A stretch of 64,000 nt of DNA from NCBI RefSeq assembly GCF_036488675.1, contig NZ_CP133152.1, forward strand, positions 1,426,001 through 1,490,000, written 5' to 3'. The number at the start of each line of letters is the position of its first letter. The first letter of the stretch is position 1. The notes under the pieces are model-generated. The model was given only the letters and a program-made list of their open reading frames with translations, was not told where the DNA came from and did not search any database. This stretch comes from Sinorhizobium chiapasense. Lineage in GTDB: Bacteria; Pseudomonadota; Alphaproteobacteria; Rhizobiales; Rhizobiaceae. Positions 17,583-33,279 of the stretch are shown here, in pieces. A program made the position numbers and the translations under genes.

Positions 17583-19909
17583 AGGCGACGCCCCAGCTTG
17601 CCAAGCAGTCCTGCTGTTGAAATGCCGAGCAAAATGGCGAGGCCGACGAGCAACAACGCGTAAAGAAGGACGTTCGTCGACAGCCAGTTGGCGCCGATCA
17701 ATCGATAGTTCCAGAGAGACGGAGCCTGTGTCGGCACGAACTCGAACTGCCTGGCCGGGATCGTTCTGACCAACTCATTGAGCGGTTCGAAGGTCGCAAT
17801 GTGACCGGATAACTGGTTCCATCTCGTGATATCCGCGATCGCCGAGACGCCCTCTTCGAGCAGCTTTGGTGTCGGCGAAGTCACAACGGTCCACGTCGCG
17901 GTCCCTGCGGGATTGGCTGCCTGAGCAATGAGCAGGGTTGCAGCGTCGAGCGGTGCAAAAATGCTCTCCTTCCCCGGCGTGATCGTGAGCGAAGTCAAGG
18001 AAATACCAAAGGTCTCCCTCATCCAGTCTTCAATATTTGCAATCGGCATCCGCCAGCCCCCGCCTCGCAATCGCGCTCTCCACTCATCGAACGCTGTCTG
18101 TGTCACCGTGCGCGAAACCGTATCCGGGGCACTGCCCCACGAAACCTTGACGCTTGCGTCGATACCGACCTGCGTCAGCACCGAGTCCGGCAGCTGCGGC
18201 AAAGCACCGATGAAGAGCGCATTGCGATCACCGACCTCCAAAGGCGTGGCGATGCGCTCGATCTGCGCTAAGCTTTCGCCTGCAAGCGCCAGCCGTGACA
18301 CGAAAGTCGCGGCGGCCGAAAGTGTCTCCGTGTCGCGCCGGTCGAGATAGAGCGCAACCGGTCCCGCATCGGCGCGGTAGGGATAGCCGACGCCCGACAT
18401 GGCGTCGAGGTTCGGACGCAGGCCGATGCGTGCGAAATCCGGCATGCGAAACTCGGACGTATCGAACAGGGCGAATCGCGCCTCGGTCGATGCAGTAGTT
18501 CCCGGTGCGCAGACGCTATCGGCTTCGGTCAGCAAGGCAGCCTCCAACTCGATGAGGTTGGGACCGGGCCGGAAGTGGCGAAGGGTGACGCTGATGGGCA
18601 GGTGGCGGACAAAGCGGCCGCTTGCCGAACCTAGCGGCACCGTCGAAGCGATGTTACCGTTGACATAGATATCGATCCGGCTGCCTGAACGCACCGCTTC
18701 CGTATAGGCCGCGTCAAGCAAAATGGTGGCCTCGCCATAGGCGCCCGCGTAAAAATCCGAAGGGAGGGAGACGCTGAATGGCGTGCGAAAGCGGCGCCCC
18801 GAGAACTCGGCCGTTGTGACCCCGAGCTCCGAGAACCGGAGCGTTTTGGCTGAAACAAACAGGGGCGGCTGAGGCAGGCGCCAGCGTTCCGTATTGATGA
18901 CGTCACGTGGCACGTCCGACGGGCGTTCGGTTATTTTGGTGACCTCTTCGATTGCAGCTTCGACGGCCGACCAATCCGGCCCCGTCAAAACCAGGAGCGG
19001 CGCGCCGCTGGCCTCGTCTTGTACGAAGGTAGCAACAGATGTCGCCGACGCTCCGTCCGGCATCGACGGCAGAAGGGGTGCCAATTCGGATACCGTGCCG
19101 GCCAGGACCGTCAACTCTCCGGGCTGGCCGAGCACAGGCATGTTCTCCGTCACGAGAACGCTCTGAGCGGGCATGTGTCCAAGCAGAGCCAATCCCTGTG
19201 CAAGCCGCATGACTGTGCCGGTCCTGCTCGGCTGGTTGAGCGCAGGCATTACGATATTGAACCGCGTGCGGCCATCGCCGTTGTTGCCGGTCGCGCGTAT
19301 ATCGTCGATCGTCGACAACCGGCCCGCGTCCCGCCCCGCGAACTCGATGAAGGCGGTCTCGGACGGAATTTCCGTCCAGAGTTCATAGGTCGACTGGATG
19401 GTGCAGTCCGTACGGTGACGTTGGTGGACACGAAAGCGGACTTCGTTGGACCCCGCCCGCAACAGATCCGGCGGGAGCTTGTAACTCCGTGTTTGTGGCG
19501 CCTCGGTCGCGCGCACTGGCCCTTCGCCGATGAGCCTGCCGTTCACGATCACGGAAAGAACGGAAGCCTCGGGCGCAACGACTATTGCATTCTGATAGGC
19601 GAAGGTGAGCGTGTTTCCCGCTGCCGCCTGACCCGGCGTCAGATAGACGGACCATGTCCGCTCATCGAATTCCCCCGTCAGCGAAAGCGTCGAAAATGGG
19701 ATGATATGGCGACGGAATGCAATCGGCTGCTCCGCTGGTGGGGTCGCGGCGTCATCAGCCTGCCGGTCTGTCTGGCCGGGCCTCGCCGGAGGTTGTACCG
19801 GGGCCCGCTCCTCGGCGGGACGTTCGCCCGTCATGTCGAAGGGTGCCGGCTGGGCCAGGGTCGGCCCGCACACAAGCACCGAAATCACGAATGCGAGCAT
19901 CCTGATCAT
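17579..19909 (-). CDS. bcsB: Cellulose synthase periplasmic subunit BcsB
   Basis: This 776-aa protein is the periplasmic partner of BcsA that guides the nascent glucan. The N-terminal signal is MIRMLAFVISVLVCGPTLAQ, and a Pro-rich linker follows. Repeated carbohydrate-binding and flavodoxin-like modules include PFSTLSLTGEFDERTWSVYLTPG, and FSVSLPSDFYAGAYGEATILLDAAY in the second module. A single C-terminal membrane anchor (LLYALLLVGLAILLGISTAGLLG) pins it to BcsA. Both gene ends overlap neighbours by ATGA, in keeping with fixed subunit ratios. Confidence 0.94.
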   Translation of the reverse strand: MIRMLAFVISVLVCGPTLAQPAPFDMTGERPAEERAPVQPPARPGQTDRQADDAATPPAEQPIAFRRHIIPFSTLSLTGEFDERTWSVYLTPGQAAAGNTLTFAYQNAIVVAPEASVLSVIVNGRLIGEGPVRATEAPQTRSYKLPPDLLRAGSNEVRFRVHQRHRTDCTIQSTYELWTEIPSETAFIEFAGRDAGRLSTIDDIRATGNNGDGRTRFNIVMPALNQPSRTGTVMRLAQGLALLGHMPAQSVLVTENMPVLGQPGELTVLAGTVSELAPLLPSMPDGASATSVATFVQDEASGAPLLVLTGPDWSAVEAAIEEVTKITERPSDVPRDVINTERWRLPQPPLFVSAKTLRFSELGVTTAEFSGRRFRTPFSVSLPSDFYAGAYGEATILLDAAYTEAVRSGSRIDIYVNGNIASTVPLGSASGRFVRHLPISVTLRHFRPGPNLIELEAALLTEADSVCAPGTTASTEARFALFDTSEFRMPDFARIGLRPNLDAMSGVGYPYRADAGPVALYLDRRDTETLSAAATFVSRLALAGESLAQIERIATPLEVGDRNALFIGALPQLPDSVLTQVGIDASVKVSWGSAPDTVSRTVTQTAFDEWRARLRGGGWRMPIANIEDWMRETFGISLTSLTITPGKESIFAPLDAATLLIAQAANPAGTATWTVVTSPTPKLLEEGVSAIADITRWNQLSGHIATFEPLNELVRTIPARQFEFVPTQAPSLWNYRLIGANWLSTNVLLYALLLVGLAILLGISTAGLLGKLGRRL

Positions 19910-22086
19910 CGCGCGCGCCCCGGTTCACGTTGAGCGGAACCCATGCTGCGGAAGAGATAAACAAGTCCTCGGTTCATCTGATAAAGCGAGAGCCACCAAA
20001 ACCACAGCGTTCCGCGCACCAGCCCAGGATTTGCGCGCCGCAGGCGCTGGAATTCGCTCCACTGCTGCGAATTTGCAAAGATCAGGTCGGCAACGAGGCT
20101 ATGGTGACGGGCCACCTCCGGCAGGTACCGGCAGCCGACGATCGTTATGTCGCCGCCGGATTCGACGTTCTTGATCGCAACCGGCAGCGTATCGAGCGTG
20201 CCGCCCCCGCTATAAGGCTCGAAGCGAATCTGGGCCTGCGTGTCGATGACGAGATTGCCATCACCCAACCCATACACCTGCACGCGGGCGCCGTTTGCCG
20301 AAACGTTCTCGATCGTTGCCGGATACCACTTCTCATTCAGTCCGAACTCGCATCGGCGACTGACCTTGACCCGCCTCGACCCCGATCTTTCACCCCGCTC
20401 GGACACGACGCCGAGCGCGCAACCGGCCAGGACCAGATTGAAGAAATTCCAGCCACCCACAACAAGGGTGATATCCGCCTTGTAGGGTTCCGCATAGACG
20501 CGATAGGCGGTGATCAGGAGGGCAATGAACAGCACGGCGAAGATGACGAAGAACGGCCGGCTGATCTCCGAAAGTCGGCTTTCGAATATCGACTCGTCCT
20601 TTGCGGTCACCTTGAAGGTGGGTTTACGCGGACTCGCCAGAACGGAAAACACTGCCGGCAGGAGATGCACCGCCTGCACATATTCGTAGAGCTCCGAGAT
20701 CCACGGCCAGCGAAACGATCCGTAGAGGTAGTTCTGCATCATCAGGTTCACGAGCATGTAGGCGAGCGTATAGGCCAGGAACTCGCCGCCCGATGCCGTG
20801 AATATCTCGAGATCGAAGAACAGATAGCAGAGCGGCGCGAACAGGAAGATCGTGCGCGACAGCGGGAACATCCAGAACAGGGCGGACGACATGTAGCAAA
20901 GCCGCTGCGGCAGGGACAAGCCGCGCTTCAACAGTGGGAAATGGAACATGAGGATCTGCATCATGCCCTGCGCCCAGCGGCTGCGTTGACCGATGAAGCT
21001 GGCAAAGGTCGCCGGCTGCAACCCGGCGATAAGCGGACGATCGACATAGACGCTGTTCCAGCCGCGCCCGTGCAGCGCCAGCGCCGTTTCGCAGTCCTCC
21101 GTGATGCTGGAGCCGCTGAACCCGCCCGCATCGTCGAGCGCCGCTCGCCGCAGCACCGCCGCCGAGCCGCAGAAAAAGGCGGCGTTCCACTTGTCGAGGC
21201 CGCGCTGGATGATCCCGTAGAACATCTCGTTTTCGCTCGGCATTTTTTCGAACGTCCTGAGGTTTCGCTCGAGCGGATCCGGATTGAGAAAGAAATGCGG
21301 CGTCTGCACCAGGAAGAGACGCGGATCGTCCTCGAAATAGCCGACCGTCTCCAGGAGGAAATCACGGGCCGGCGCATGATCGGCATCGAACACCGCAATC
21401 AATTCGCCGTCGGCGTGCAGCATTCCGTTGTTGAGATTGCCGGCCTTGGCATGTTCGTTGCGCTCGCGCGTCAGATAGCGCACGCCGAGATCGGCGCACA
21501 GTTCCTGCAATTGCAGATGACGCGCCGCGGCGCGCTGCGCCTCGACGAGGCTGGCGGAGTCGCGCTTCTGCTGGGTCCCGCCATCGTCGAGCAGCCATAC
21601 CGTCAGCTTGTCGGCCGGGTAGTCCATGCCTTTCGCTGCCGCGAGCGTATTGGCGAGAAGCGATGCCTCCTCGTTGTAGGAGGGAACGAAGACGTCGACC
21701 TTCGGGGATTTTGCTGCCGTGGCGGCCCGGGATGGTCGAGGCGGGAGCGGCATGGCCACGACGAAAAGGCTGAGGGCCAGCATCATCACGCTGTACATTT
21801 CGGCGAGGTAGAGCAGGAAGCCCGGAATGAAGTTTTCAGGCTGGTTGACGGGCGGCAAGGTGTTGGTCGTCCGCCAATAGACATAGCGCAGCACGATTGC
21901 CGTACCGAAGGCAAGCGCGATCAGCCGCCATCTGCCGCCGGCGTTCACGAGCTTGATCAGCGCCATGAAGGTCACGACGACAACACTTGCGATCAGTTGC
22001 GTCTGCAGATTGACAGGCAGCGTGATCAGGGCGACGACGCAAAGGGAAAGAAACGCCCACACGGCAAGGGCAGCAACTTTACTCAT
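19906..22086 (-). CDS. bcsA: Cellulose synthase catalytic subunit BcsA (GT2, PilZ domain)
   Basis: This 726-aa membrane glycosyltransferase polymerises UDP-glucose into cellulose. The GT2 catalytic motifs are all present: LLDDGG near residue 168, the DxD motif DADHAP near 237, TED near 335 and QRSRW near 375. Several membrane helices flank the catalytic domain. The C-terminal region from about residue 570 is a PilZ domain, with VSRRCEFG and the NVSANGARV core, expected to bind cyclic di-GMP and open the active site. GGAAGG precedes the ATG. bcsN lies 98 bp upstream, so a separate promoter or a processed operon is possible. Confidence 0.96.
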   Translation of the reverse strand: MSKVAALAVWAFLSLCVVALITLPVNLQTQLIASVVVVTFMALIKLVNAGGRWRLIALAFGTAIVLRYVYWRTTNTLPPVNQPENFIPGFLLYLAEMYSVMMLALSLFVVAMPLPPRPSRAATAAKSPKVDVFVPSYNEEASLLANTLAAAKGMDYPADKLTVWLLDDGGTQQKRDSASLVEAQRAAARHLQLQELCADLGVRYLTRERNEHAKAGNLNNGMLHADGELIAVFDADHAPARDFLLETVGYFEDDPRLFLVQTPHFFLNPDPLERNLRTFEKMPSENEMFYGIIQRGLDKWNAAFFCGSAAVLRRAALDDAGGFSGSSITEDCETALALHGRGWNSVYVDRPLIAGLQPATFASFIGQRSRWAQGMMQILMFHFPLLKRGLSLPQRLCYMSSALFWMFPLSRTIFLFAPLCYLFFDLEIFTASGGEFLAYTLAYMLVNLMMQNYLYGSFRWPWISELYEYVQAVHLLPAVFSVLASPRKPTFKVTAKDESIFESRLSEISRPFFVIFAVLFIALLITAYRVYAEPYKADITLVVGGWNFFNLVLAGCALGVVSERGERSGSRRVKVSRRCEFGLNEKWYPATIENVSANGARVQVYGLGDGNLVIDTQAQIRFEPYSGGGTLDTLPVAIKNVESGGDITIVGCRYLPEVARHHSLVADLIFANSQQWSEFQRLRRANPGLVRGTLWFWWLSLYQMNRGLVYLFRSMGSAQREPGRAR

Positions 22087-22184
22087 TCATTCGCCTTCCA
22101 GCAGACGGCATCATGCCGCTGGTTTGACCAAAACAGGTCCTTAAAGTTCGACCAGCCTCATACCAAACGTTGGTTACAGGCTGA

Positions 22185-23165
22185 TCAAGGACAATCGGTT
22201 CCGGCCTGCGCGTCGCAGGTCGGCATTGGTACCACAACCGTGCTCCCCGCCCCCGCCGGCGTTCCCGTCGGCGTTGGCAGGCCGCTTGCAGCCTGGTCCG
22301 GCGGCCCGGGCACCGCAGCCTGCTCCCGCACTTGCGGCCTCCCCATTCCGGCCCCTACTGCCGGACGGACGATCCTTCTCTCGACCACGGTAACACGCTC
22401 GATCGCGGGTGGCTCCTTTGGATAGATGGGACTGCCGGTACGACCAATGCCGGGATCTACCGCGGGCGGTTCGCCATAAGGATTCCACCTCGGATCGGGA
22501 AAGGTGCCGCTGATTGTGTAGCCATAAACGGGCGCGAGAAGTTCTCTTTCCGTGGCTCCAGCCGCACAATAGCGCACCCGGACCTGTATTGTGCCATGGT
22601 TCTGCAGCGGCGAGCGGCGGTGTTGCGGCGGGCGAATCTGCTGCCAGGCATAGAGGCAGGCATCGTCCCCGCGACCGCGCCCGAAGGCGTAACCGAAAGG
22701 TCCGTAGCTGTTCTGAAGGAAATAGGGCGATTGCGTCAGTGCCGCTCCGGGCACCGCCCGCCGCGCCTCGCGCATCATCTGCGAGCTGCGAACAGGGAGG
22801 TATGCGCTGCTCTGCTGGCCGAAAACCGTTTCCATCGGCCCGAAAAACTGGGCCTTGAGAAAATTCTGTCCGGGCGTCGAGGCGGATGTATGGAGAAAGA
22901 CGTCCTGTGCTATGGAGTTGGCGAAACGGCGTTCGACGACGTTGAGGACCGCCGGGCCGCCGGGCGGCGGCAAGATGAGCGCATTCTCCGTCGGCACAAG
23001 GGCCGCGCCTGACATCGTGCGTACGCCTTCGCGCGCCGCGCACCCGACCAGCAGAAGGCCCAGAATGGCAAGCATGCCCGTGGGACCGCCCGTGCATCGG
23101 CGGGCGGCAAGCGCCACCCCTTCCCAAAAAAGGCCGAATCGCCGACTCAAGAACCGCTTTGCCAT
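22185..23165 (-). CDS. bcsN: Cellulose biosynthesis protein BcsN (lipoprotein-like)
   Basis: This 326-aa protein has an Arg-rich N-terminus, a hydrophobic stretch and a lipobox (LLLVGCAAREG, Cys near residue 42), predicting export and lipid anchoring. The mid-region AIAQDVFLHTSASTPGQNFLKAQ-type block and repeated Gly/Pro-rich C-terminal segments are typical of BcsN, a protein found only with alphaproteobacterial cellulose operons. Its molecular role is not established. The C-terminal 70 residues are low complexity (Gly, Pro, Ala, Val). A shorter start at the Met before LAILGLLL is possible but would lose the positive n-region. It is transcribed toward bcsA. Confidence 0.82.
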   Translation of the reverse strand: MAKRFLSRRFGLFWEGVALAARRCTGGPTGMLAILGLLLVGCAAREGVRTMSGAALVPTENALILPPPGGPAVLNVVERRFANSIAQDVFLHTSASTPGQNFLKAQFFGPMETVFGQQSSAYLPVRSSQMMREARRAVPGAALTQSPYFLQNSYGPFGYAFGRGRGDDACLYAWQQIRPPQHRRSPLQNHGTIQVRVRYCAAGATERELLAPVYGYTISGTFPDPRWNPYGEPPAVDPGIGRTGSPIYPKEPPAIERVTVVERRIVRPAVGAGMGRPQVREQAAVPGPPDQAASGLPTPTGTPAGAGSTVVVPMPTCDAQAGTDCP

Positions 23166-25260: not shown

Positions 25261-25719
25261 ATGAACAAGAAGGATCCAAACCCGATTGATACCTTCGTCG
25301 GTTCTCGCGTCAGAATGCGCAGACTGATGGTCGGGCTGAGCCAGGAGAAGCTGGCCGATGGCCTGGGCATCACCTTCCAGCAGGTACAGAAGTACGAAAA
25401 GGGCACGAACCGCATCGGCGCGAGCCGGCTGCAGGCGATTGCCGATATCCTGGGCGTCCACCCAAGCTTCTTCTTCCAGCGCGACGAAGAAAGGCCGTCG
25501 GGCCGAGAAAGCGCCGGCGACATGCATGAGTCGAACGAGATTTCCTCCTTCGTCGCCTCGAAGGAAGGCATCGCGCTCAACAGGGCGTTCCTGAAGATCG
25601 CCGATCCCGTGTTGCGGAAGAAGATCATCTCGCTCGTAGCCGCGATGGCCCAGACACCAGATACGGAGTCAACGAGCGTCGCCGCTGGCGCGCGCCGCAC
25701 AGAGCCCCTGCACGGTTAA
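25261..25719 (+). CDS. XRE-family helix-turn-helix regulator (PraR-like)
   Basis: This 152-aa protein has a classic HTH_3 domain at about residues 14-68 (RVRMRRLMVGLSQEKLADGL, then TFQQVQKYEKGTNRI and LQAIADILGV). The C-terminal tail is variable and has VLRKKIISLVAAMA, probably for dimer formation. Rhizobia hold several related proteins that act in quorum sensing or development. GAGGAG precedes the ATG by about 10 bp. The SARP-like gene follows after 31 bp on the same strand, so this is probably the first gene of the YcaO-TfuA operon and may control it. The target is not known. Confidence 0.9.
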   Translation: MNKKDPNPIDTFVGSRVRMRRLMVGLSQEKLADGLGITFQQVQKYEKGTNRIGASRLQAIADILGVHPSFFFQRDEERPSGRESAGDMHESNEISSFVASKEGIALNRAFLKIADPVLRKKIISLVAAMAQTPDTESTSVAAGARRTEPLHG

Positions 25720-25750
25720 GAGCTAGCCTTACCGTCAGCGAGGGGGCCGC

Positions 25751-27619
25751 ATGACCTACAGGTTGCAGACTCTGGGACGATTGCGCCTGCTTAATGAAGC
25801 GGGCCGCGAAGTCGCATTCCCCGAGAAGGGCCTGCTCATCCTGTGTCTCGCGATTGCCAACGGCCATCGCGAGCAGTCCCGGGCGGAAACGGCCAAGCTG
25901 CTGTGGGACGGGGTCGAGCCCAGCCAGGCCTATGTCAACCTGCGCAAGACAATCTCCCGCATCACCGCCCAGCAGATGGAGCTCGGGCGCACCTTTCTGA
26001 CCTTTTCGCAGTCGTCGATCCTGCTCAATCCGGGAACCCTGACGAGCGATCTGGATGCCGTGACGGACGATGGCGGCGACGCCGTGGCTCGCTTCTGCCG
26101 CATTGCCACTGTGCTGCGCGACGATTTCCTGAAGGACGCGAAATCGCACGGCAAGGCGCTCGATGCCTGGATCAGCCACCAGCGCGAGACGCATATGTCG
26201 CTGCTCAGGGAACGCCTGCTTGCCGCGACGCCCGCCGCCGCCGGCAAACATCGCGAACTTCTCAAGTCGGCGGCAATGCGATTGCTCGAACGCAGTCCGT
26301 CGGACGAGGAAGTCCGCGCGATCTTGAAGAGTGCGCTGGAATCCGAAGGGCGGCATCATGATGCGCAGGTCATCTTCGACAGCGTCAGCCGCTCGGTGCC
26401 TGTCATCGGCAGCCTGCCCTCCGCACCGGTCGAGGTCCTTGTCGGGGATGACCATCAGCAGAGAAAGCCGCCGCGGCTCGTGCTGCTGCCGCCAAACTCC
26501 GAGCGCGCGGATAGCGCCGCGGCAATCTTCGCAAGCTCGCTCATCGAGGACGTGACGATCGGCCTCTGCGCCCTTCGGTCCGTCAGCGTCATCGCGCCCT
26601 ATACCGCGGCGCAGATCGGCCTTCAGGCCGACAAGGCGAACACCTACGAACGGCACACCATCAGCTATATCCTCGACACACGATTGACTGACGAGGGCGA
26701 TCGGCAGAGCCTCTTTGCCCAATTGATCTTCTTTGCGAGTGACGAGGTCATCTGGGCCGACCGGTTCAATCTCGTCGGCGATGGGCTGATGCAGTCGCGC
26801 AGGGGCATTGCGCACCGGATCGCTTCGGCGATCGCAAGCCAGGTCGAACGGAATGAAGCCGCCCGACACGCCTACGAGCGCAATGGCGAGTCCTATCGCA
26901 GCTATCTCCTCGGCCAGCGGTATCTCAAGCATCTCAACCTTCCGGAGATCCGCCGCGCGCGCAAGAGCTTCCGCGAGGCGTTGAGCGACCAGCGGGACTT
27001 CGCCCCCGCCATGAGCGGGCTTGCCAGGAGCTATTTCGTCGAATGGCTGCTGACGGCGCGCGGCGATCGCGAGCTGCTGACGCTGGCCGAAAGACATGCG
27101 CGTGACGCGATCGCCGCCGACGAGACGCTCGCCTCCGGCCACCGGGAACTCGGAGTCGTCAAGCTCTACCTCCGCGAATTCGACGAAAGCGTCGAATTCC
27201 ACGACCGGGCGGAAGAGCTCAGCCCGCACTATGCCAATGTTATCGCCAGCTATGCCGACACCCTCGTGCAGGCCTCCCGTCCCGGCGAGGGCCTGCAGAA
27301 GATCGAGGCGGCGATCGATCTCAACCCGATCGCTCCGGACGAATATTTCTGGACGGCCGCCGGCGCCAGCTACTCTCTTGGCCACTACGAACAGGCGCTC
27401 GCCTATATCGACCGGATGCGGGACCGGACACCGGCCGACCGGTTGTCGGCCGCGAGCTGGGGCATGCTCGGCGACCGCAGAAAGGCTCGCCAGTTCGTGC
27501 GAAAGACACTCGATGTCCATCCGGACTTCGATCTCGACCGCTGGATGGCGATCGTGCCCATCCGGGAGGATTGGCAGAGGGAGCATTACCGCGAGGGCCT
27601 GAAGAAGGCGGGTTTTTGA
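25751..27619 (+). CDS. SARP-like winged-helix/BTAD regulator with TPR tail
   Basis: This 622-aa protein begins with a winged-helix domain of the SARP/OmpR kind (YRLQTLGRLRLLNEAGREV through LLWDGVEPSQAYVNLRKTISRI, residues 3-70). A BTAD-like helical region follows to about residue 215. Residues ~235-320 resemble the TolB-like segment seen in adenylate-cyclase/TPR regulators (PPRLVLLPPNS through IEDVTIGL). From ~380 to the end there are TPR-type helix pairs (FAPAMSGLARSYFVEWL; HYANVIASYADTL). There is no membrane helix. SARP-type proteins activate peptide and secondary-metabolite clusters, and this one directly precedes a peptide-YcaO-TfuA set. Direct repeats at 29872-29911 resemble SARP sites. 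Confidence 0.82.
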   Translation: MTYRLQTLGRLRLLNEAGREVAFPEKGLLILCLAIANGHREQSRAETAKLLWDGVEPSQAYVNLRKTISRITAQQMELGRTFLTFSQSSILLNPGTLTSDLDAVTDDGGDAVARFCRIATVLRDDFLKDAKSHGKALDAWISHQRETHMSLLRERLLAATPAAAGKHRELLKSAAMRLLERSPSDEEVRAILKSALESEGRHHDAQVIFDSVSRSVPVIGSLPSAPVEVLVGDDHQQRKPPRLVLLPPNSERADSAAAIFASSLIEDVTIGLCALRSVSVIAPYTAAQIGLQADKANTYERHTISYILDTRLTDEGDRQSLFAQLIFFASDEVIWADRFNLVGDGLMQSRRGIAHRIASAIASQVERNEAARHAYERNGESYRSYLLGQRYLKHLNLPEIRRARKSFREALSDQRDFAPAMSGLARSYFVEWLLTARGDRELLTLAERHARDAIAADETLASGHRELGVVKLYLREFDESVEFHDRAEELSPHYANVIASYADTLVQASRPGEGLQKIEAAIDLNPIAPDEYFWTAAGASYSLGHYEQALAYIDRMRDRTPADRLSAASWGMLGDRRKARQFVRKTLDVHPDFDLDRWMAIVPIREDWQREHYREGLKKAGF

Positions 27620-27655
27620 GGCGCAATTCCGCGCGAGAGCAAGAGGGGTGAAATA

Positions 27656-27874
27656 ATGGCTGAGGTTGTTGTTTTCGGCATTGCCGGAGAGGATCATTTG
27701 TGGCTCGCGGATCTCAGGGCGGGGACAGTCACCAGGATCGATCCGCCCAAGCAGGGTGCGCTGGCAGACGCCGACGCATTGCGCAAGGCAGGGTCCACCG
27801 TCATCAAGACTGTCAATCTGGCCGCTGCGGCAAGTTCTGCCGACCGCGTTTTCGGGGGGTTCCTGGACGGCTAG
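27656..27874 (+). CDS. 72-residue small protein, candidate precursor peptide for YcaO/TfuA
   Basis: A short gene with a strong ribosome site (GAGGGG 8 bp before the ATG) sits between the SARP-like regulator and the YcaO gene on the same strand. The product starts MAEVVVFGIAGEDHLW and ends SSADRVFGGFLDG. It has no Cys, no signal peptide and no membrane helix. The N-terminal ~50 residues are mixed alpha/beta-like, and the tail is Ala/Ser/Gly-rich. No known family is recognised. Position and size fit a RiPP precursor with a leader of ~50 residues and a C-terminal core, but a small accessory protein is equally possible. There are 61 bp to the YcaO start. Confidence 0.7.
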   Translation: MAEVVVFGIAGEDHLWLADLRAGTVTRIDPPKQGALADADALRKAGSTVIKTVNLAAAASSADRVFGGFLDG

Positions 27875-27935
27875 CCGGGTATTGCCACGGGCGGCAGGCC
27901 AAAGGGGCTGTCGCCCGTGCGACCCCTCGATAGCC

Positions 27936-29129
27936 ATGTCCAGCTCAATTCGCTATTCCGATCGCATCTGTGCCGCCGAAACGACCTTCGGCCGGATCGA
28001 ACCGCTTTTGCCGGAGTTCGGCATCACGCGGCTTGCACGCCTGACCGGACTGGATTGCATCGGCATACCGGTCTGGAATGCCGTGTCTCCGAATTCGAAG
28101 TCGCTGGTCATCAATCAGGGCAAGGGCATAACGGACATCGACGCCAAAGTCTCGGCCGCCATGGAGGCGCTCGAGCGTGCCGTCGCATGCGCGCCGCGCG
28201 TGCCGACGAGAGTTGTTAACCGCAGCGAGCTATTGGCCGAAGGCGATCAGGCCCTGCCTCTACCGGGGCTGATCGCCAGCGCGCGAGCCGATCTTGCCGA
28301 CGATGAACCGATCCGCTGGGTTCTCGGCCGCGACCTCGACAGAGGAGCGCCGACATGGGTTCCGCTGGAGGCCGCGCTGCTCGACAGGACGGTGGAGAAC
28401 TGCCGGTACTGGCAATCGTCCGATGGCCTCGCCTCCGGCAACACCGAGACTGAAGCGGTGCTACATGGGCTCCTGGAGCGGATCGAACGCGATGCGGAGG
28501 TGCTGTGGCGCCTCACGCCATTGGCAACGAGGCTTCGACGCTGCGTTGCACCGCAGGCGCTCGGCGATCCGGTGCTCGATGCGATGGCCGCAAAGTTTGC
28601 CGCAGCCGAACTCGAGCTGCGCCTTTTCGACATCACCAGCGACGTCGGCATACCGAGCTTCACCGCTGTCGTGGCCGGGAAAGACATTCTCACGGCGAAG
28701 GCGCCGCTTTTCCATCACGTGACGGTCGGACATGGGGCACATCCGACTGCAGCACGGGCGGCCATCCGCGCCGTAACCGAAGCGGCCCAATCGAGGCTCA
28801 CCTACATCAGCGGCGCGCGCGACGACGTCTATCCGGAGACGTTCGTTCGCCCCTTGCCGCAGCAGACGCAAAAACTGTTCGAGGCTGTGCCGCAAGCGCC
28901 GACACGCGTCGACGCTACCCAGGCGGGGGGACCGGACGCGCTCTTGTCTTTCGTCCTGCAGCGGCTGCGGGACGCCGGCATCGGTCAGGTCATCTCCGTG
29001 CCGCTGCTCGGGGATGACCTGCCCTTTGCGGTTGTGAAAGTGTTCGTTCCGGAGCTGGAAAACCCGGAGGGCGAGCGCAAGCGCCGCTTCGGCACACGGG
29101 CACTCTCCCGGGCGCTGGAGGTGGCATGA
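27936..29129 (+). CDS. YcaO-domain cyclodehydratase/thioamidation enzyme
   Basis: This 397-aa YcaO enzyme is of the kind encoded beside TfuA. The ATP-binding elements are visible: SAAMEALERA at residues 73-82 (Sx3ExxE), ASGNT at 166-170, and EAVLHGLLERIERD at 173-186. The C-terminus (FGTRALSRALEVA) lacks the Pro-rich PxPxP end of azoline-forming YcaO proteins, which fits TfuA-dependent members. YcaO-TfuA pairs are known to install backbone thioamides using ATP and a sulfur source. The ATG at 27936 has only a weak ribosome site. The frame is open back to 27666, but that part overlaps the small peptide gene and shows no YcaO homology. The stop overlaps tfuA by 4 bp. Confidence 0.88.
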   Translation: MSSSIRYSDRICAAETTFGRIEPLLPEFGITRLARLTGLDCIGIPVWNAVSPNSKSLVINQGKGITDIDAKVSAAMEALERAVACAPRVPTRVVNRSELLAEGDQALPLPGLIASARADLADDEPIRWVLGRDLDRGAPTWVPLEAALLDRTVENCRYWQSSDGLASGNTETEAVLHGLLERIERDAEVLWRLTPLATRLRRCVAPQALGDPVLDAMAAKFAAAELELRLFDITSDVGIPSFTAVVAGKDILTAKAPLFHHVTVGHGAHPTAARAAIRAVTEAAQSRLTYISGARDDVYPETFVRPLPQQTQKLFEAVPQAPTRVDATQAGGPDALLSFVLQRLRDAGIGQVISVPLLGDDLPFAVVKVFVPELENPEGERKRRFGTRALSRALEVA

Positions 29130-29845
29130 AGATCGTCTTCGTCGGCCCGACCGTCCCGGATGCGCGCGCGCTCGCCGGTGCGGCTTTCGCGGTCCATCCG
29201 CCGGCGATGCAGGGAGATATCCTGCGTGTCGTACGCGCCGGGGCGACGATCATCGGCCTTGTCGACGGCAACTTCGAACATGTGGCGCCGGTCTGGCACA
29301 AGGAGATCCTGTTCGCCCTTTCACAAGGTGTACAGGTCTTCGGGGCGGCGAGCATGGGTGCCTTGCGCGCCGCTGAGTGTGCGCCGTTCGGAATGGTGGG
29401 GATCGGAGACATATATCGCCAGTATGCCGCAGGCGAGCTTGCGGACGACTCGGATGTGGCCCTGCTTCATGCGCCCGCCGAGCTCGGCTATGCGCCCCTG
29501 ACGGTCCCGCTGGTCAATGTGCGCGCGACGCTTGCGCGCCTCAGGCAGGGCGGCTCGATTACGATTGCGGATGCCATGCGGATCGAAGCGGCAGCCGGGC
29601 AGATATTCTACAAGCGGCGCACATGGGCGGCGATCGTTGCCGATGCAGAACTTCAGGCGGATGCCGATCGCGCCGCCTTGGCGGCAAGGCTTCATCAGGA
29701 GATGGTCGACCAGAAGCGCATCGACGCCCTCGCGCTTTTCGACGCGGTCAGCGCCCAGCCGGAGGAACGGCGCGGCGAAAGACCCGGCCGGGCATTCAAT
29801 TCGACAAGTATGTGGAAGGTTTTGCTTAATCAACCTGAGACGTAG
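29126..29845 (+). CDS. TfuA-like protein, YcaO partner
   Basis: This 239-aa protein has the TfuA core. KIVFVGPTVPD opens a Rossmann-like strand, HKEILFALSQGVQVFGAASMGALRAAE at about residues 54-80 is the family signature, and FGMVGIGDIYRQY follows. TfuA was first described in the trifolitoxin locus, and family members act with YcaO in thioamide formation, probably delivering sulfur. The C-terminal ~80 residues are helical and charged. Its ATG overlaps the YcaO stop (ATGA), so the two are co-translated, as expected for a complex. The sulfide source is not encoded nearby. Confidence 0.88.
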   Translation: MKIVFVGPTVPDARALAGAAFAVHPPAMQGDILRVVRAGATIIGLVDGNFEHVAPVWHKEILFALSQGVQVFGAASMGALRAAECAPFGMVGIGDIYRQYAAGELADDSDVALLHAPAELGYAPLTVPLVNVRATLARLRQGGSITIADAMRIEAAAGQIFYKRRTWAAIVADAELQADADRAALAARLHQEMVDQKRIDALALFDAVSAQPEERRGERPGRAFNSTSMWKVLLNQPET

Positions 29846-29871: not shown

Positions 29872-29954
29872 GTGTCACGCCCGTGTCACGCCCACGGCGC
29901 CAAAGTCACGCTATATTTGCTGCGGAAAGCGGGTCGCAGTGACCCCCGAGTGAC
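29872..29954 (+). promoter_or_regulatory. 11-bp-phased direct repeats and promoter of the 78-aa gene
   Basis: GTGTCACGCCC occurs twice in exact tandem (29872-29882, 29883-29893), and GTCACGC appears again at 29905-29911, next to TATATT (29912-29917), a -10 candidate. Further on, AGTGAC occurs at 29938-29943 and 29949-29954, again 11 bp apart but inverted relative to the first set. Heptamers phased by 11 bp are the known layout of SARP operators. Binding by the SARP-like protein encoded at 25751 is an inference. Confidence 0.6.
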
Positions 29955-29967
29955 ACTGGGGAAAATC

Positions 29968-30204
29968 ATGCAGCAATCCATCAAGCTACCTATCGACGTG
30001 GAAGACAAGGAGAAGGAACTTCTGGCCCTTGCCCGCCTCGTCAGCTACGCACGAGACTCCGCCAAGACTTTGAACGTCGAGGGCGTGCAATATTGCCTGG
30101 AATTGGCCTTGGCCTCCCTGCTTCAGGAAGTCGAATACATCAGCGACAAGAACGTTCTTCCGACGGTCGATCTGGTGGCTCTGGGCAGCCTGGGCCGCTG
30201 CTGA
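29968..30204 (+). CDS. 78-residue conserved-looking small protein
   Basis: The start at 29968 has GGGG seven bases upstream and follows a structured promoter. A longer frame from 29872 would run through the repeats and is rejected. The product is acidic and helical: VEDKEKELLALARLVSYARDS forms a likely amphipathic helix, and VQYCLELALASLLQEVEYI a second. It ends VALGSLGRC with a terminal Cys. No signal peptide or known domain is recognised. It lies 122 bp after tfuA on the same strand but behind its own promoter. It could be a small regulator, an immunity factor or a second peptide substrate; none is shown. Confidence 0.75.
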   Translation: MQQSIKLPIDVEDKEKELLALARLVSYARDSAKTLNVEGVQYCLELALASLLQEVEYISDKNVLPTVDLVALGSLGRC

Positions 30205-31464: not shown

Positions 31465-32058
31465 ATGACCCGCCGCGACCTGACCATTCTTGTGATTGAC
31501 GAGAACGCCATCCGCGCCTCGATCATCGAGGAAGGCTTGCGCGATGCGGGCCACAACCGCGTGAGCATCGTGCACGATGTCCATGGCGTCGGGCGCGTGA
31601 TCGAACGGCTGCAACCGGATGTGATCGTCATCGATCTCGAAAATCCCAATCGCGATTTGCTGGAGAGCATGTTCCAGCTCTCTCGCTCGGTGAAGCGCCC
31701 GATCGCCATGTTCGTTGATCGATCCGACAGCAGCATGATCGAGGCGGCGATCGACGCCGGCGTCTCGGCCTACGTCGTCGACGGACTGCGGCAGGAGCGC
31801 GTGAAATCGATCCTCGACATGGCGATCAGCCGTTTCAATGCCTTTTCACGCATGGAGCGCGAGTTGGCGGAAGCGCGCAGCGAGCTTGCGGACCGCAAGG
31901 TGATCGACCGCGCCAAGGGCATCCTGATGAAGTCGCGCGGCATCAGCGAAGAAGAGGCCTACAAGCTCCTGCGCACCGCTGCGATGAACCAGAACCGAAA
32001 GTTAGCCGAAATCGCACAGAGCCTGGTGCTGGCGGCGGGATTGCTGGAGGACCTGTGA
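31465..32058 (+). CDS. nasT: Nitrate-responsive antiterminator NasT (ANTAR)
   Basis: This 197-aa protein has an N-terminal receiver-like domain (ILVIDENAIRASIIEEGL; VIVIDLENPN) and a C-terminal ANTAR RNA-binding domain (LADRKVIDRAKGILMKSRGISEEEAYKLLRTAAM). NasT binds paired hexaloop hairpins in nitrate-assimilation leaders and prevents termination; NasS holds it inactive until nitrate binds. Here nasS follows with no gap (stop at 32058, ATG at 32059). The target leader with matching hairpins is found at 33477-33575. The order nasT-nasS is the reverse of some other bacteria. Confidence 0.94.
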   Translation: MTRRDLTILVIDENAIRASIIEEGLRDAGHNRVSIVHDVHGVGRVIERLQPDVIVIDLENPNRDLLESMFQLSRSVKRPIAMFVDRSDSSMIEAAIDAGVSAYVVDGLRQERVKSILDMAISRFNAFSRMERELAEARSELADRKVIDRAKGILMKSRGISEEEAYKLLRTAAMNQNRKLAEIAQSLVLAAGLLEDL

Positions 32059-33279
32059 ATGGCTGCCACCGCCGACATTACCCTTGGCTTCATGCCGCTC
32101 TTCGACAGCGCCGTGCTGGTCGCCGCCAGCGAAAAGGGCTTCATCGCCGACGAGGGCCTGTCGGTGCAACTGGTCCGGGAAACCTCCTGGGCCAATATCC
32201 GCGATCGGATCGCCGTCGGCCATTTCCAGGCCGCCCACATGCTGGCACCGATGCCTATTGCATCCAATCTCGGCCTCACGCCACTGTCGCTGGACCTCGT
32301 GGCACCCTTTGCGCTTGGACTTGGCGGCAATGCGGTGACGGTCTCGCGCGGCCTTTGGGATCGCATGGTCGCCGACGGCGCCGGACCCGGCACCGACCCG
32401 ACCGCCAATGGCGCGGCGTTGAGGCGCGTCGTCCAGCGACGCCGCGACGCCGGAGAACCGCCACTGCGTTTTGCCGTCGTCCACCCTTTCTCCGGCCATA
32501 ACTACGAGCTGCGCTATTGGCTCGCGGGCTGCGGCATCGATCCGGAAAGCCACGTCGAGATTGTCGTGGTTCCGCCGCCGTTGATGGCCGATGCGCTGTC
32601 GACTGGCGCCATCGACGGCTTCTGCGTCGGCGAACCGTGGAACAGTGTCGCGGTTGCAAGGCATGCCGGGCGTATTGCCACCACCAAGGCGTCGATCTGG
32701 CGGCTGAGTCCGGAAAAGGTGCTCGGCGTTTCGGCCCGGTTTGCCTCCGAACACCGCCCCGCGCTGGACGCGCTGCTGCGTGCGCTCTACCGAAGCTCGA
32801 TGTGGTGCAGCGAAGCCGCAAACCACGAAGAACTCGCGGCACTGATGAGCACGCCTGCTTATCTTGACCTGCCGCGCCAGAGGCTGATGCCGATCCTCAC
32901 GGGCCGACTGATGCTCGGCGATGGCGCGACCGGCGACATTCCGGAGTTCTTTGTCCCGCACGCCAAGGGCGCGAGCTTTCCCTGGCAGAGCCACGCCCTC
33001 TGGTTCTATAGCCAGATGGTGCGGTGGGGACACACGCCGCATTCGGCCGCGCTTGCTGAGCGCGCGCGTGACACCTACCGGCCCGACATCTACCGGCAGG
33101 CGCTGAAGCCGATCGCCGCGCCGATGCCTGGCGCCAATATGAAGGTCGAGGGCGCCCTGACCGTGGCGGCACCGGTCGGAGCTTCGGAAAAAGGGCTCGT
33201 TCTCGGCCCCGATGGTTTTTTCGACGGCCGGATCTTCGACCCGGACCGGCTCGACGACTATCTGGCGAGCCAGCGCTGA
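32059..33279 (+). CDS. nasS: Nitrate sensor NasS (NrtA-like, cytoplasmic)
   Basis: This 406-aa protein is homologous to nitrate-binding NrtA but lacks a signal peptide, so it should remain in the cytoplasm. It begins TADITLGFMPLFDSAVLVAASEKG and shares the ligand-pocket blocks seen in NrtA, for example [19 protein letters not shown] and GFCVGEPWNSVAV. NasS proteins sequester NasT without nitrate and release it when nitrate or nitrite binds. The direct junction with nasT supports this role. A periplasmic transporter role is excluded by the missing signal sequence. Confidence 0.92.
   Translation: MAATADITLGFMPLFDSAVLVAASEKGFIADEGLSVQLVRETSWANIRDRIAVGHFQAAHMLAPMPIASNLGLTPLSLDLVAPFALGLGGNAVTVSRGLWDRMVADGAGPGTDPTANGAALRRVVQRRRDAGEPPLRFAVVHPFSGHNYELRYWLAGCGIDPESHVEIVVVPPPLMADALSTGAIDGFCVGEPWNSVAVARHAGRIATTKASIWRLSPEKVLGVSARFASEHRPALDALLRALYRSSMWCSEAANHEELAALMSTPAYLDLPRQRLMPILTGRLMLGDGATGDIPEFFVPHAKGASFPWQSHALWFYSQMVRWGHTPHSAALAERARDTYRPDIYRQALKPIAAPMPGANMKVEGALTVAAPVGASEKGLVLGPDGFFDGRIFDPDRLDDYLASQR

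Follow-up and report, generated by a model that had tools for sequence, protein, structure and literature searches.

What would a rhizobial bacterium make with a YcaO–TfuA enzyme pair encoded directly behind two regulators, and what would the product be for? The question is raised by a locus within a 64,000-nt stretch of Sinorhizobium chiapasense DNA (the window; from a 1.63-Mb contig of a 6.87-Mb genome in 5 contigs), in which a sequence-only reading had seen a candidate thioamide-type cluster for a ribosomally synthesized and post-translationally modified peptide (RiPP). The locus holds a six-gene module kept across the Rhizobiaceae, consisting of an XRE-family regulator, a regulator resembling Streptomyces antibiotic regulatory proteins (SARPs) with tetratricopeptide repeats (TPRs), the 72-residue protein P72, YcaO, TfuA and the 78-residue protein P78. 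P72 is very probably a RiPP precursor, and comparative evidence suggests that it may well be the start of a circuit in which YcaO–TfuA thioamidates the P72 core, the product controls the SARP-like regulator and the regulator controls P78. The sequence-only reading finds strong support on the precursor and overlooked P78, the direct-repeat operator ahead of it and the SARP–P72 pairs that lie apart from the enzymes; together these point to a regulatory circuit, not a biosynthetic cluster alone. The features are as follows, in window coordinates.

25261..25719, + strand: XRE-family regulator, 152 aa (PF01381 HTH_3, E 2.1e-14, 53.7 bits)
25751..27619, + strand: SARP-like regulator, 622 aa (winged-helix and BTAD-like N-terminus, middle domain, C-terminal TPR)
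27656..27874, + strand: P72, predicted RiPP precursor, 72 aa (coding pattern, co-occurrence with the YcaO clade, structure model)
27851..27871, + strand: predicted core peptide F66-G67-G68-F69-L70-D71-G72 (motif, and tandem repeats in homologues)
27857-27859, + strand: Gly68 codon, predicted thioamide site (conservation among homologues)
27936..29129, + strand: YcaO enzyme, 397 aa (PF02624, E 4.7e-63)
29126..29845, + strand: TfuA, 239 aa (PF07812, E 1.2e-44; ATGA overlap with YcaO)
29872-29917, + strand: predicted operator region ahead of P78 (sequence and relatives)
29872..29891, + strand: predicted operator in which the 9-bp repeat GTGTCACGC occurs twice, spaced by 11 bp; full sequence GTGTCACGCCCGTGTCACGC
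29905..29917, + strand: third half-site GTCACGC (29905-29911), then -10-like TATATT (29912-29917) (sequence)
29968..30204, + strand: P78, a 78-aa predicted output protein that looks helical on inspection (kept among relatives; without a Pfam family)

P72 co-occurs with one YcaO clade

The five genes named by the sequence-only reading (XRE, SARP-like, 72-aa open reading frame (ORF), YcaO and TfuA) were all found on one strand where it had placed them, with TfuA coupled to YcaO as described, its start at 29126 overlapping the YcaO end at 29129; P78 follows TfuA after a gap of 122 bp. An initial search covered 60 genomes, the window's own included, and found P72 in 34, namely the own genome, 32/32 of the same genus, 1/3 from other genera of the family and 0/24 from other families. 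Across 94 loci with a P72 profile match, a tally that takes in the own window and near-duplicates, 46 read XRE-SARP-P72-YcaO-TfuA-P78 and the rest are mostly variants; the XRE gene precedes the SARP gene in most compared loci, and P72 follows SARP in nearly all tabulated ones, with or without YcaO. When the ORFs of 32 loci in 19 groups were compared, the only widely spread families were the six module genes; a family of ABC-type ATPases, present in 6 of the 19 groups, looks incidental, and two further families (5 and 4 groups) are apparently frames overlapping module genes.

Among 297 evenly drawn Rhizobiaceae genomes, 50 gave P72 matches and 95 gave matches to the window's YcaO, 49 of these with at least 250 bits. 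These 49 (G and L numbers below denote genomes and loci) are exactly the P72 genomes, the extra P72 match (G285) being due to chance, and P72 was found in 0/20 genomes with a top YcaO score of 170-250 bits (Fisher p 1e-55). The small precursor gene both adjoins and co-occurs with the enzymes: it lies at most 0.8 kb upstream of YcaO in 48/49 genomes and elsewhere in G085, a fragmented assembly of 1890 contigs. Loss of P72 with YcaO–TfuA kept, the observation that had been named as damaging to the RiPP reading, was sought and occurs in none of the 49 genomes; the two genomes found to keep the regulators but no P72 also lack YcaO, and TfuA at the locus. Together with the repeated C-terminal cores described below, the presence of P72 in 49/49 genomes of the YcaO clade strongly supports that reading.

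The regulator and P78 follow the same distribution closely. SARP matches of at least 238 bits occur in 51/297 genomes, the 49 P72 genomes plus G272 and G325, and weaker SARP-like matches are common (116/297 genomes at 1e-20); the own genome itself has three additional ones. P78 was detected in 47/297 genomes, comprising 43 of the 49 P72 genomes plus G272, G325, G152 and G244, the last two with a different SARP-YcaO-TfuA type at the P78 locus; this count is a lower bound because the profile missed existing P78-like ORFs, and the six P72 genomes without a match fall within the two most divergent groups. The own genome encodes one YcaO and one TfuA (E <= 0.001), and the 32 other same-genus genomes at least two of both each. 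A separate observation concerns the same-genus genome G017, which has five YcaO matches, one at 327 bits and two flanking TfuA (G017:C26:11566-12576; G017:C48).

The predicted C-terminal core of P72

The coding pattern marks the 72-aa ORF as a genuine gene: substitutions by codon position number 49/29/165 against 10 close relatives, and homologues exist in 32/32 other same-genus genomes examined. The ribosome site (GAGGGG upstream) and the lack of Cys in the protein were confirmed. An AlphaFold2 model of P72 (predicted local distance difference test (pLDDT) 83.5) places three strands and a helix in residues 4-44, with block means of 90-92 that drop to 58 in the less certain C-terminal part.

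That C-terminal part carries the predicted core, of the form [S/A/G]-Gly-x-hydrophobic-Asp/Glu and GGFLDG in this genome. Among 97 unique P72 homologues, G-x-hydrophobic-[DE] occurs beyond residue 45 in 85 (mean 11, maximum 22 in 500 residue shuffles) and within the N-terminal 45 residues in 4; it stands at the last or next-to-last position in 71 of the 85. Of the 12 homologues without it, three are long-repeat forms, one is a fragment and eight are divergent sequences, six of these eight adjoining SARPs 27-33% identical to the window's. A single core suffices in most homologues. Tandem cores, often with an exact 7-residue period, are present in five (FSGKL[ED] x4 in L143, GLHE x3 in L144 and L109, GGYMD x3 in L153 and L165), and repeats of 23-24 residues in three (L066 x3, L058 x2 and a degenerate L107 x3). 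Repeated C-terminal cores in relatives fit the precursor role, and P72 has the conserved or repeated core plus leader of a thioamidated RiPP. On plasmid pC5.7c of Rhizobium rhizogenes, the L107 locus has two P72-YcaO-TfuA units in tandem; the degenerate three-core P72 belongs to the second, and the TfuA of the first is a partial match.

Predicted chemistry of YcaO and TfuA

YcaO and TfuA lie side by side, both above their Pfam cut-offs. Residues S73, E77, E80, E173, E181, E184 and R185, which we take to be the ATP motifs, are at least 98% conserved across 84 aligned YcaOs, the window's among them. The closest solved relatives are the archaeal YcaO MJ1094 (E 9e-33) and the TfuA protein 6xp8 (E 2e-26). 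Both enzymes find their best curated match in McrA-glycine thioamidation models (YcaO 206.3 bits, cut-off 365; TfuA 176.9 bits, cut-off 235.2), and neither reaches the equivalog cut-offs (TIGR03266, NF033432); against the E. coli-type model NF040716 the window's YcaO scores 15.5 bits versus a cut-off of 700.

P72 is with high probability the YcaO–TfuA substrate, and the enzyme families suggest that its core probably receives a backbone thioamide. The most likely site would be Gly68, which is at least 90% conserved (invariant in the 15-row alignment A1, at least 90% in the 48-row alignment A3). The thioglycine of McrA also stands before a bulky residue. TfuA has been described as a hydrolase that delivers sulfide with a thiocarboxylated carrier (PMC13063428). 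Likeness to archaeal McrA-glycine thioamidation, another YcaO–TfuA reaction, lies in the closest curated models and in the thioamide being on Gly there (PMC5589413); the differences are the scores below both cut-offs and a target that is a large enzyme there and would be a small precursor here.

A predicted direct-repeat operator ahead of P78

The label SARP-like is reasonable, though sequence similarity backs it only weakly: the TPR half of the regulator is clear (TPR_19, 28.8 bits, cut-off 25), and the BTAD domain, at 18.6 bits, stays below its cut-off of 22.1. TPR matches span residues 238-621 (AlphaFold2 model pLDDT 83.9, predicted template modelling score 0.54). Matches to BTAD and Trans_reg_C, each in 3/19 SARP members (E <= 0.1), and to AfsR 8hvr (E 0.22) are weak. 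The presumed recognition helix reads NLRK66TIS69R.

The predicted operator ahead of P78 (0.08 such repeats expected by chance in the window at up to 3 mismatches) is the sole exact site in the own genome. A pair of G[TC][CA]ACG elements with 11-bp spacing, lying within 160 bp upstream, precedes 60/69 P78 genes exactly and 67/69 with at most one mismatch, compared with a background of 0.005 per 160 bp; it was found before 0/86 XRE, 0/97 SARP, 0/101 YcaO, 0/97 TfuA and 0/98 P72 genes. A genus-wide scan gave 33 exact degenerate sites in 30/33 genomes (reversed control 0), 30 of the 33 directly ahead of P78; the others (L246, L248 and L249) are without P78 and look like chance. The L249 repeat lies 44 nt ahead of a 75-aa ORF. 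Because nearly all same-genus genomes have one exact site each, the sequence evidence supports control of essentially one transcript, that of P78, by the SARP-like regulator.

The sites of classical SARPs are direct repeats spaced by 11 or 22 bp, with 8 bp separating them from the -10 element (PMC10936776). At the sequence level the predicted operator has the SARP-type repeats at 11 bp; its 3' repeat is not 8 bp from the -10-like element, a TAnnnT-like box starting 19-20 nt past the second repeat in 59/66 loci, the 66 being those of 71 that have such a box within 30 nt.

The half-site covaries with residue 66 of the presumed recognition helix. Ser66 goes with GCAACG (CA half-site) in 23/23 loci and Lys or Gln with GTCACG or GTAACG (TC or TA half-site) in 45/45, Ser never occurring there, in a set that holds many close relatives and, among the 45, two loci (L151, L163) with doubtful operators. 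In all five Ser66 loci where the profile had failed to detect P78 (L142, L144, L109, L170, L110), TGCAACG repeats stand immediately ahead of a P78-like ORF; in the Lys66 locus L149, P78 lies about 7 kb further on, outside the first stretch, with TGTCACG repeats ahead (site L247), as expected. Among eleven YcaO loci scanned whose SARPs carry an 'RQLL' helix, TGTAACG repeats were present in L198, L199 and L196, the last with AGTAACG as one of its half-sites; L184, also RQLL, has them too. The Ser66/CA loci form two clades, separated by deep nodes with support of 0.10-0.22, and these likely arose independently. With this covariation, binding of the P78 operator by the SARP-like regulator is highly likely.

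Peptide-regulator pairs apart from the enzymes

SARP–P72 pairs without a same-strand YcaO are found on chromids and plasmids. Nine SARPs of such pairs form one clade (support 1.00). At six of the nine loci, YcaO, TfuA and P78 were not found in the 12-14 kb fetched; the exceptions are L044 and L112, with adjoining TfuA, and L066, with a divergent P72-YcaO-TfuA. None of the nine loci holds the operator. Residue 66 nevertheless fits the P78 operator elsewhere in the host in 8/8 known cases (Ser66 with GCAACG in L044, L066 and L106; Lys66 with GTCACG in L054, L064, L065, L146 and L181), the operator for L106 being taken from another S. meliloti strain (L070) and one half being imperfect in the host operator of L146. 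The nine P72s have the cores SGHY[DE]G or HGRFDG, and in the four genomes where a second, main P72 was compared its core is GGFMDG (G013, G322), GGYMDG (G018) or GGFLDG (G004). The surroundings of L112 (a Rhizobium leguminosarum plasmid) include, besides the pair, a short TfuA and genes annotated as S8 peptidase, HEXXH peptide-modification protein and ThiF.

Core distances were compared with those of the other parts in 36 loci having all genes. Correlation with the core was highest for the TPR domain (0.53), YcaO (0.49) and the winged helix (0.47), and lower for the middle domain (0.30), leader (0.25), BTAD (0.21) and TfuA (0.14). Given all others, and with the caution that Mantel-type tests on related sequences are anti-conservative, partial correlations were 0.26 for TPR (p 0.001), 0.15 for YcaO (p 0.009), 0.07 for the leader (p 0.15), -0.01 for the middle domain and -0.13 for TfuA; the winged helix retained 0.17 (not permuted). 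These values support the view that the core would face both the enzyme and the TPR domain of the SARP.

Splitting and loss of the module

One same-genus clade carries SARP-P72-YcaO-P78 at one locus and an XRE–TfuA pair elsewhere: XRE (79-88% identical to the window's) stands directly before TfuA (62-67%) in 17/18 unlinked TfuA loci, the exception being L079, and in G016, G028 and G015 (3-4 contigs) the two sets are on separate contigs. In G025, G024 and G001, the YcaO–P78 locus has no SARP or P72 nearby, and P72 lies elsewhere, adjoining SARP. SARP, P72, YcaO and P78 stand together in S. meliloti strain Ak57.

G272 and G325 keep XRE (66-68%), SARP (56%), the operator and P78, with about 411 and 300 bp, respectively, between SARP and P78 where their relatives L153 and L165 carry P72-YcaO-TfuA. 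No traces of P72, YcaO or TfuA were found at the locus, and genome-wide searches found no P72 or YcaO (E <= 0.001), TfuA having been searched at the locus only. This joint loss implies that the cassette can be lost as a unit and that the regulatory part can stand alone.

A proposed switch and its alternatives

In the scheme that we favour, YcaO would recognise the N-terminal part of P72 and, with TfuA, place a backbone thioamide in the core (...FGGFLDG), most likely at Gly68. The modified peptide, or the modified protein, would bind the TPR half of the adjacent SARP, as pairing and covariation suggest; the SARP would bind the 11-bp direct-repeat operator and control P78, a small protein that would serve as effector. 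In some genomes, separate SARP–P72 pairs would rely in trans on these enzymes and act on the one P78 promoter as well. A Lys66 SARP would be expected on GTGTCACGCNNGTGTCACGC, and the K66S form to shift its preference to GTGCAACGC. That the P72 product is the SARP ligand has, on these comparisons, about an even chance. The fullest version is a Gram-negative peptide-receptor switch, with a thioamidated ribosomal heptapeptide as signal, a SARP-TPR activator as receptor, one small-protein gene as output, separate pairs with differing cores in one cell feeding the same promoter in trans, and G272 and G325 as receivers without producers; we consider it possible, at somewhat less than an even chance.

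Several observations weigh against this scheme. The counts overstate independence because close relatives are among the compared loci, and Mantel-type tests on related sequences are anti-conservative; 4/49 YcaO matches (G194, G300, G073, G347) have one stop codon inside the aligned stretch. The eight divergent P72 homologues (L150, L155, L158, L162, L167, L170, L172, L180) lack the core motif. On the regulator side, the BTAD similarity is below its cut-off, the winged helix retains a partial correlation with the core, and the -10-like box lies about one turn further from the repeat than in classical SARP promoters. The operator repeat was not found before P78 in L151 and L163, nor in six Gln66 loci of divergent groups, nor, L142 excepted, at the separate SARP–P72 loci themselves. 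Finally, exporter, importer and protease genes are not among the conserved module genes of the 32 loci compared, which bears out what had been claimed for exporter and protease.

G272 and G325 retain P78 although P72-YcaO-TfuA is gone from their loci, and immunity genes often persist in non-producers. An ordinary RiPP cluster would account for this, if it made a thioamidated bacteriocin-like or metal-binding peptide with housekeeping export, the SARP being the pathway activator and P78 an immunity protein kept in non-producers; antibiotic clusters are also the usual SARP targets (PMC10936776). Such a cluster is nevertheless unlikely, since six of the nine clade SARP–P72 pairs have no adjoining YcaO, TfuA or P78, the module is universal in the genus as sampled (32/32 relatives), no conserved exporter was found in the 32 loci, and the operator lies ahead of P78 and not of the biosynthetic genes. 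The module without protease or exporter, the predicted fold of P72 and the sufficiency of one core in most homologues would suit another arrangement, in which whole modified P72 is the SARP partner, its folded N-terminal part staying on and its thioamide tail tuning binding inside the cell. Against it, the 7-residue tandem cores suggest multi-copy release, and the leader correlates poorly with the core and adds little beyond TPR; we hold this form to be rather improbable.

Very improbable is the idea that YcaO–TfuA acts on another cellular protein, with P72 as a RiPP recognition element (RRE)-like adaptor or a sulfur carrier. In Foldseek the P72 model matches best to TbiB1 with leader peptide (E 0.34), presumably an RRE protein. 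ThiS-type carriers end in a C-terminal Gly-Gly, which P72 lacks, and an adaptor or carrier leaves unexplained both the repeated C-terminal cores and the enzyme-free SARP–P72 pairs. E. coli YcaO thioamidates uL16 with no precursor needed, but in the same account TfuA does not lie near the suspected uL16-type YcaOs (PMC13063428).

Relation to known systems

The thiovarsolin system of Streptomyces (varA/varY/varT) likewise combines YcaO, TfuA and a small precursor, yields a short linear thioamide product with no specific protease in the cluster, and has precursors ranging from one core to five repeats (PMC6511847), a spread from single to repeated cores that is also seen in the P72 family. Unlike in that system, where the core is APR, the core here is GxPhi[D/E], the conserved set has no heme oxygenase, ATP-grasp, amidinotransferase or major facilitator superfamily gene, and the regulator and P78 are fixed parts.

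AfsS of Streptomyces coelicolor is a small protein. The large C-terminal-TPR SARP AfsR activates afsS through two 11-bp direct repeats, much as proposed here for P78, whereas the account of AfsR–AfsS describes no peptide precursor (PMC10936776). Also unlike AfsR, no NOD match was found in the Pfam scan, P78 has no family match, and the distance between operator and -10-like box is greater by roughly one helical turn.

RRNPP receptors carry an XRE-type helix-turn-helix. In RRNPP pairs of Firmicutes, a TPR receptor gene stands beside a small gene whose last few residues usually hold the signal (PMC10075063), and here too the peptide gene adjoins the receptor gene. The differences are the SARP-like receptor, the predicted modified core and the Gram-negative host; the receptor, at 622 aa, exceeds the 250-500 aa of RRNPP receptors with C-terminal TPR, and P72, with its predicted fold, has by eye no basic-hydrophobic N-terminal secretion signal.

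YcaO–TfuA pairs are abundant in rhizobia, and antiSMASH has flagged more than 500 TfuA-related clusters in Rhizobium (PMC8120280), probably including loci of this module. The enzymes were already known because those clusters were counted there; the main text contains none of the words 'SARP', 'tetratricopeptide' and 'repeat', and its passages on these clusters describe neither P72 nor P78 and name no product or role for the lineage (PMC8120280). The literature searched gave no description of the precursor core, core repeats, operator code and separate pairs. With the module come a defined substrate, predictions for the modification site and the receptor, and one output promoter that can be measured, which makes both chemistry and purpose testable in a common laboratory rhizobium. 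Were the peptide the ligand, this would be a modified-peptide regulatory system in Gram-negatives, a bacterial peptide thioamide with a physiological role other than toxicity, and a new kind of bacterial peptide switch in root-nodule bacteria and relatives.

Related architectures and neighbouring genes

In seven loci with YcaO at 218-240 bits (L191, L192, L195-L199), a different peptide of 42-47 aa is encoded between SARP and YcaO-TfuA. A P78-like ORF comes next, and in L196, L198 and L199 TGTAACG-type repeats precede it. The peptide C-terminus is conserved (NIVHA[LV][RK]FR or [NS]LTHAL[RK]FR), making these peptides a candidate second precursor family with the same architecture. Other SARP-YcaO-TfuA loci (L193, L194, L205, L206) have ORFs of 137-158 aa between SARP and YcaO that start like FYVIGKRGSGVLFIRTDPLRA; no profile similarity between these ORFs and P72 was found. 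Within the window, a cellulose synthase-like glycosyltransferase with a PilZ domain adjoins BcsN at 19909-23165 (- strand). At 31465-33276, an ANTAR response regulator is followed by an NMT1-like binding protein, a pair that presumably has a nitrate role; the same arrangement flanks the module in the ten closest relatives.

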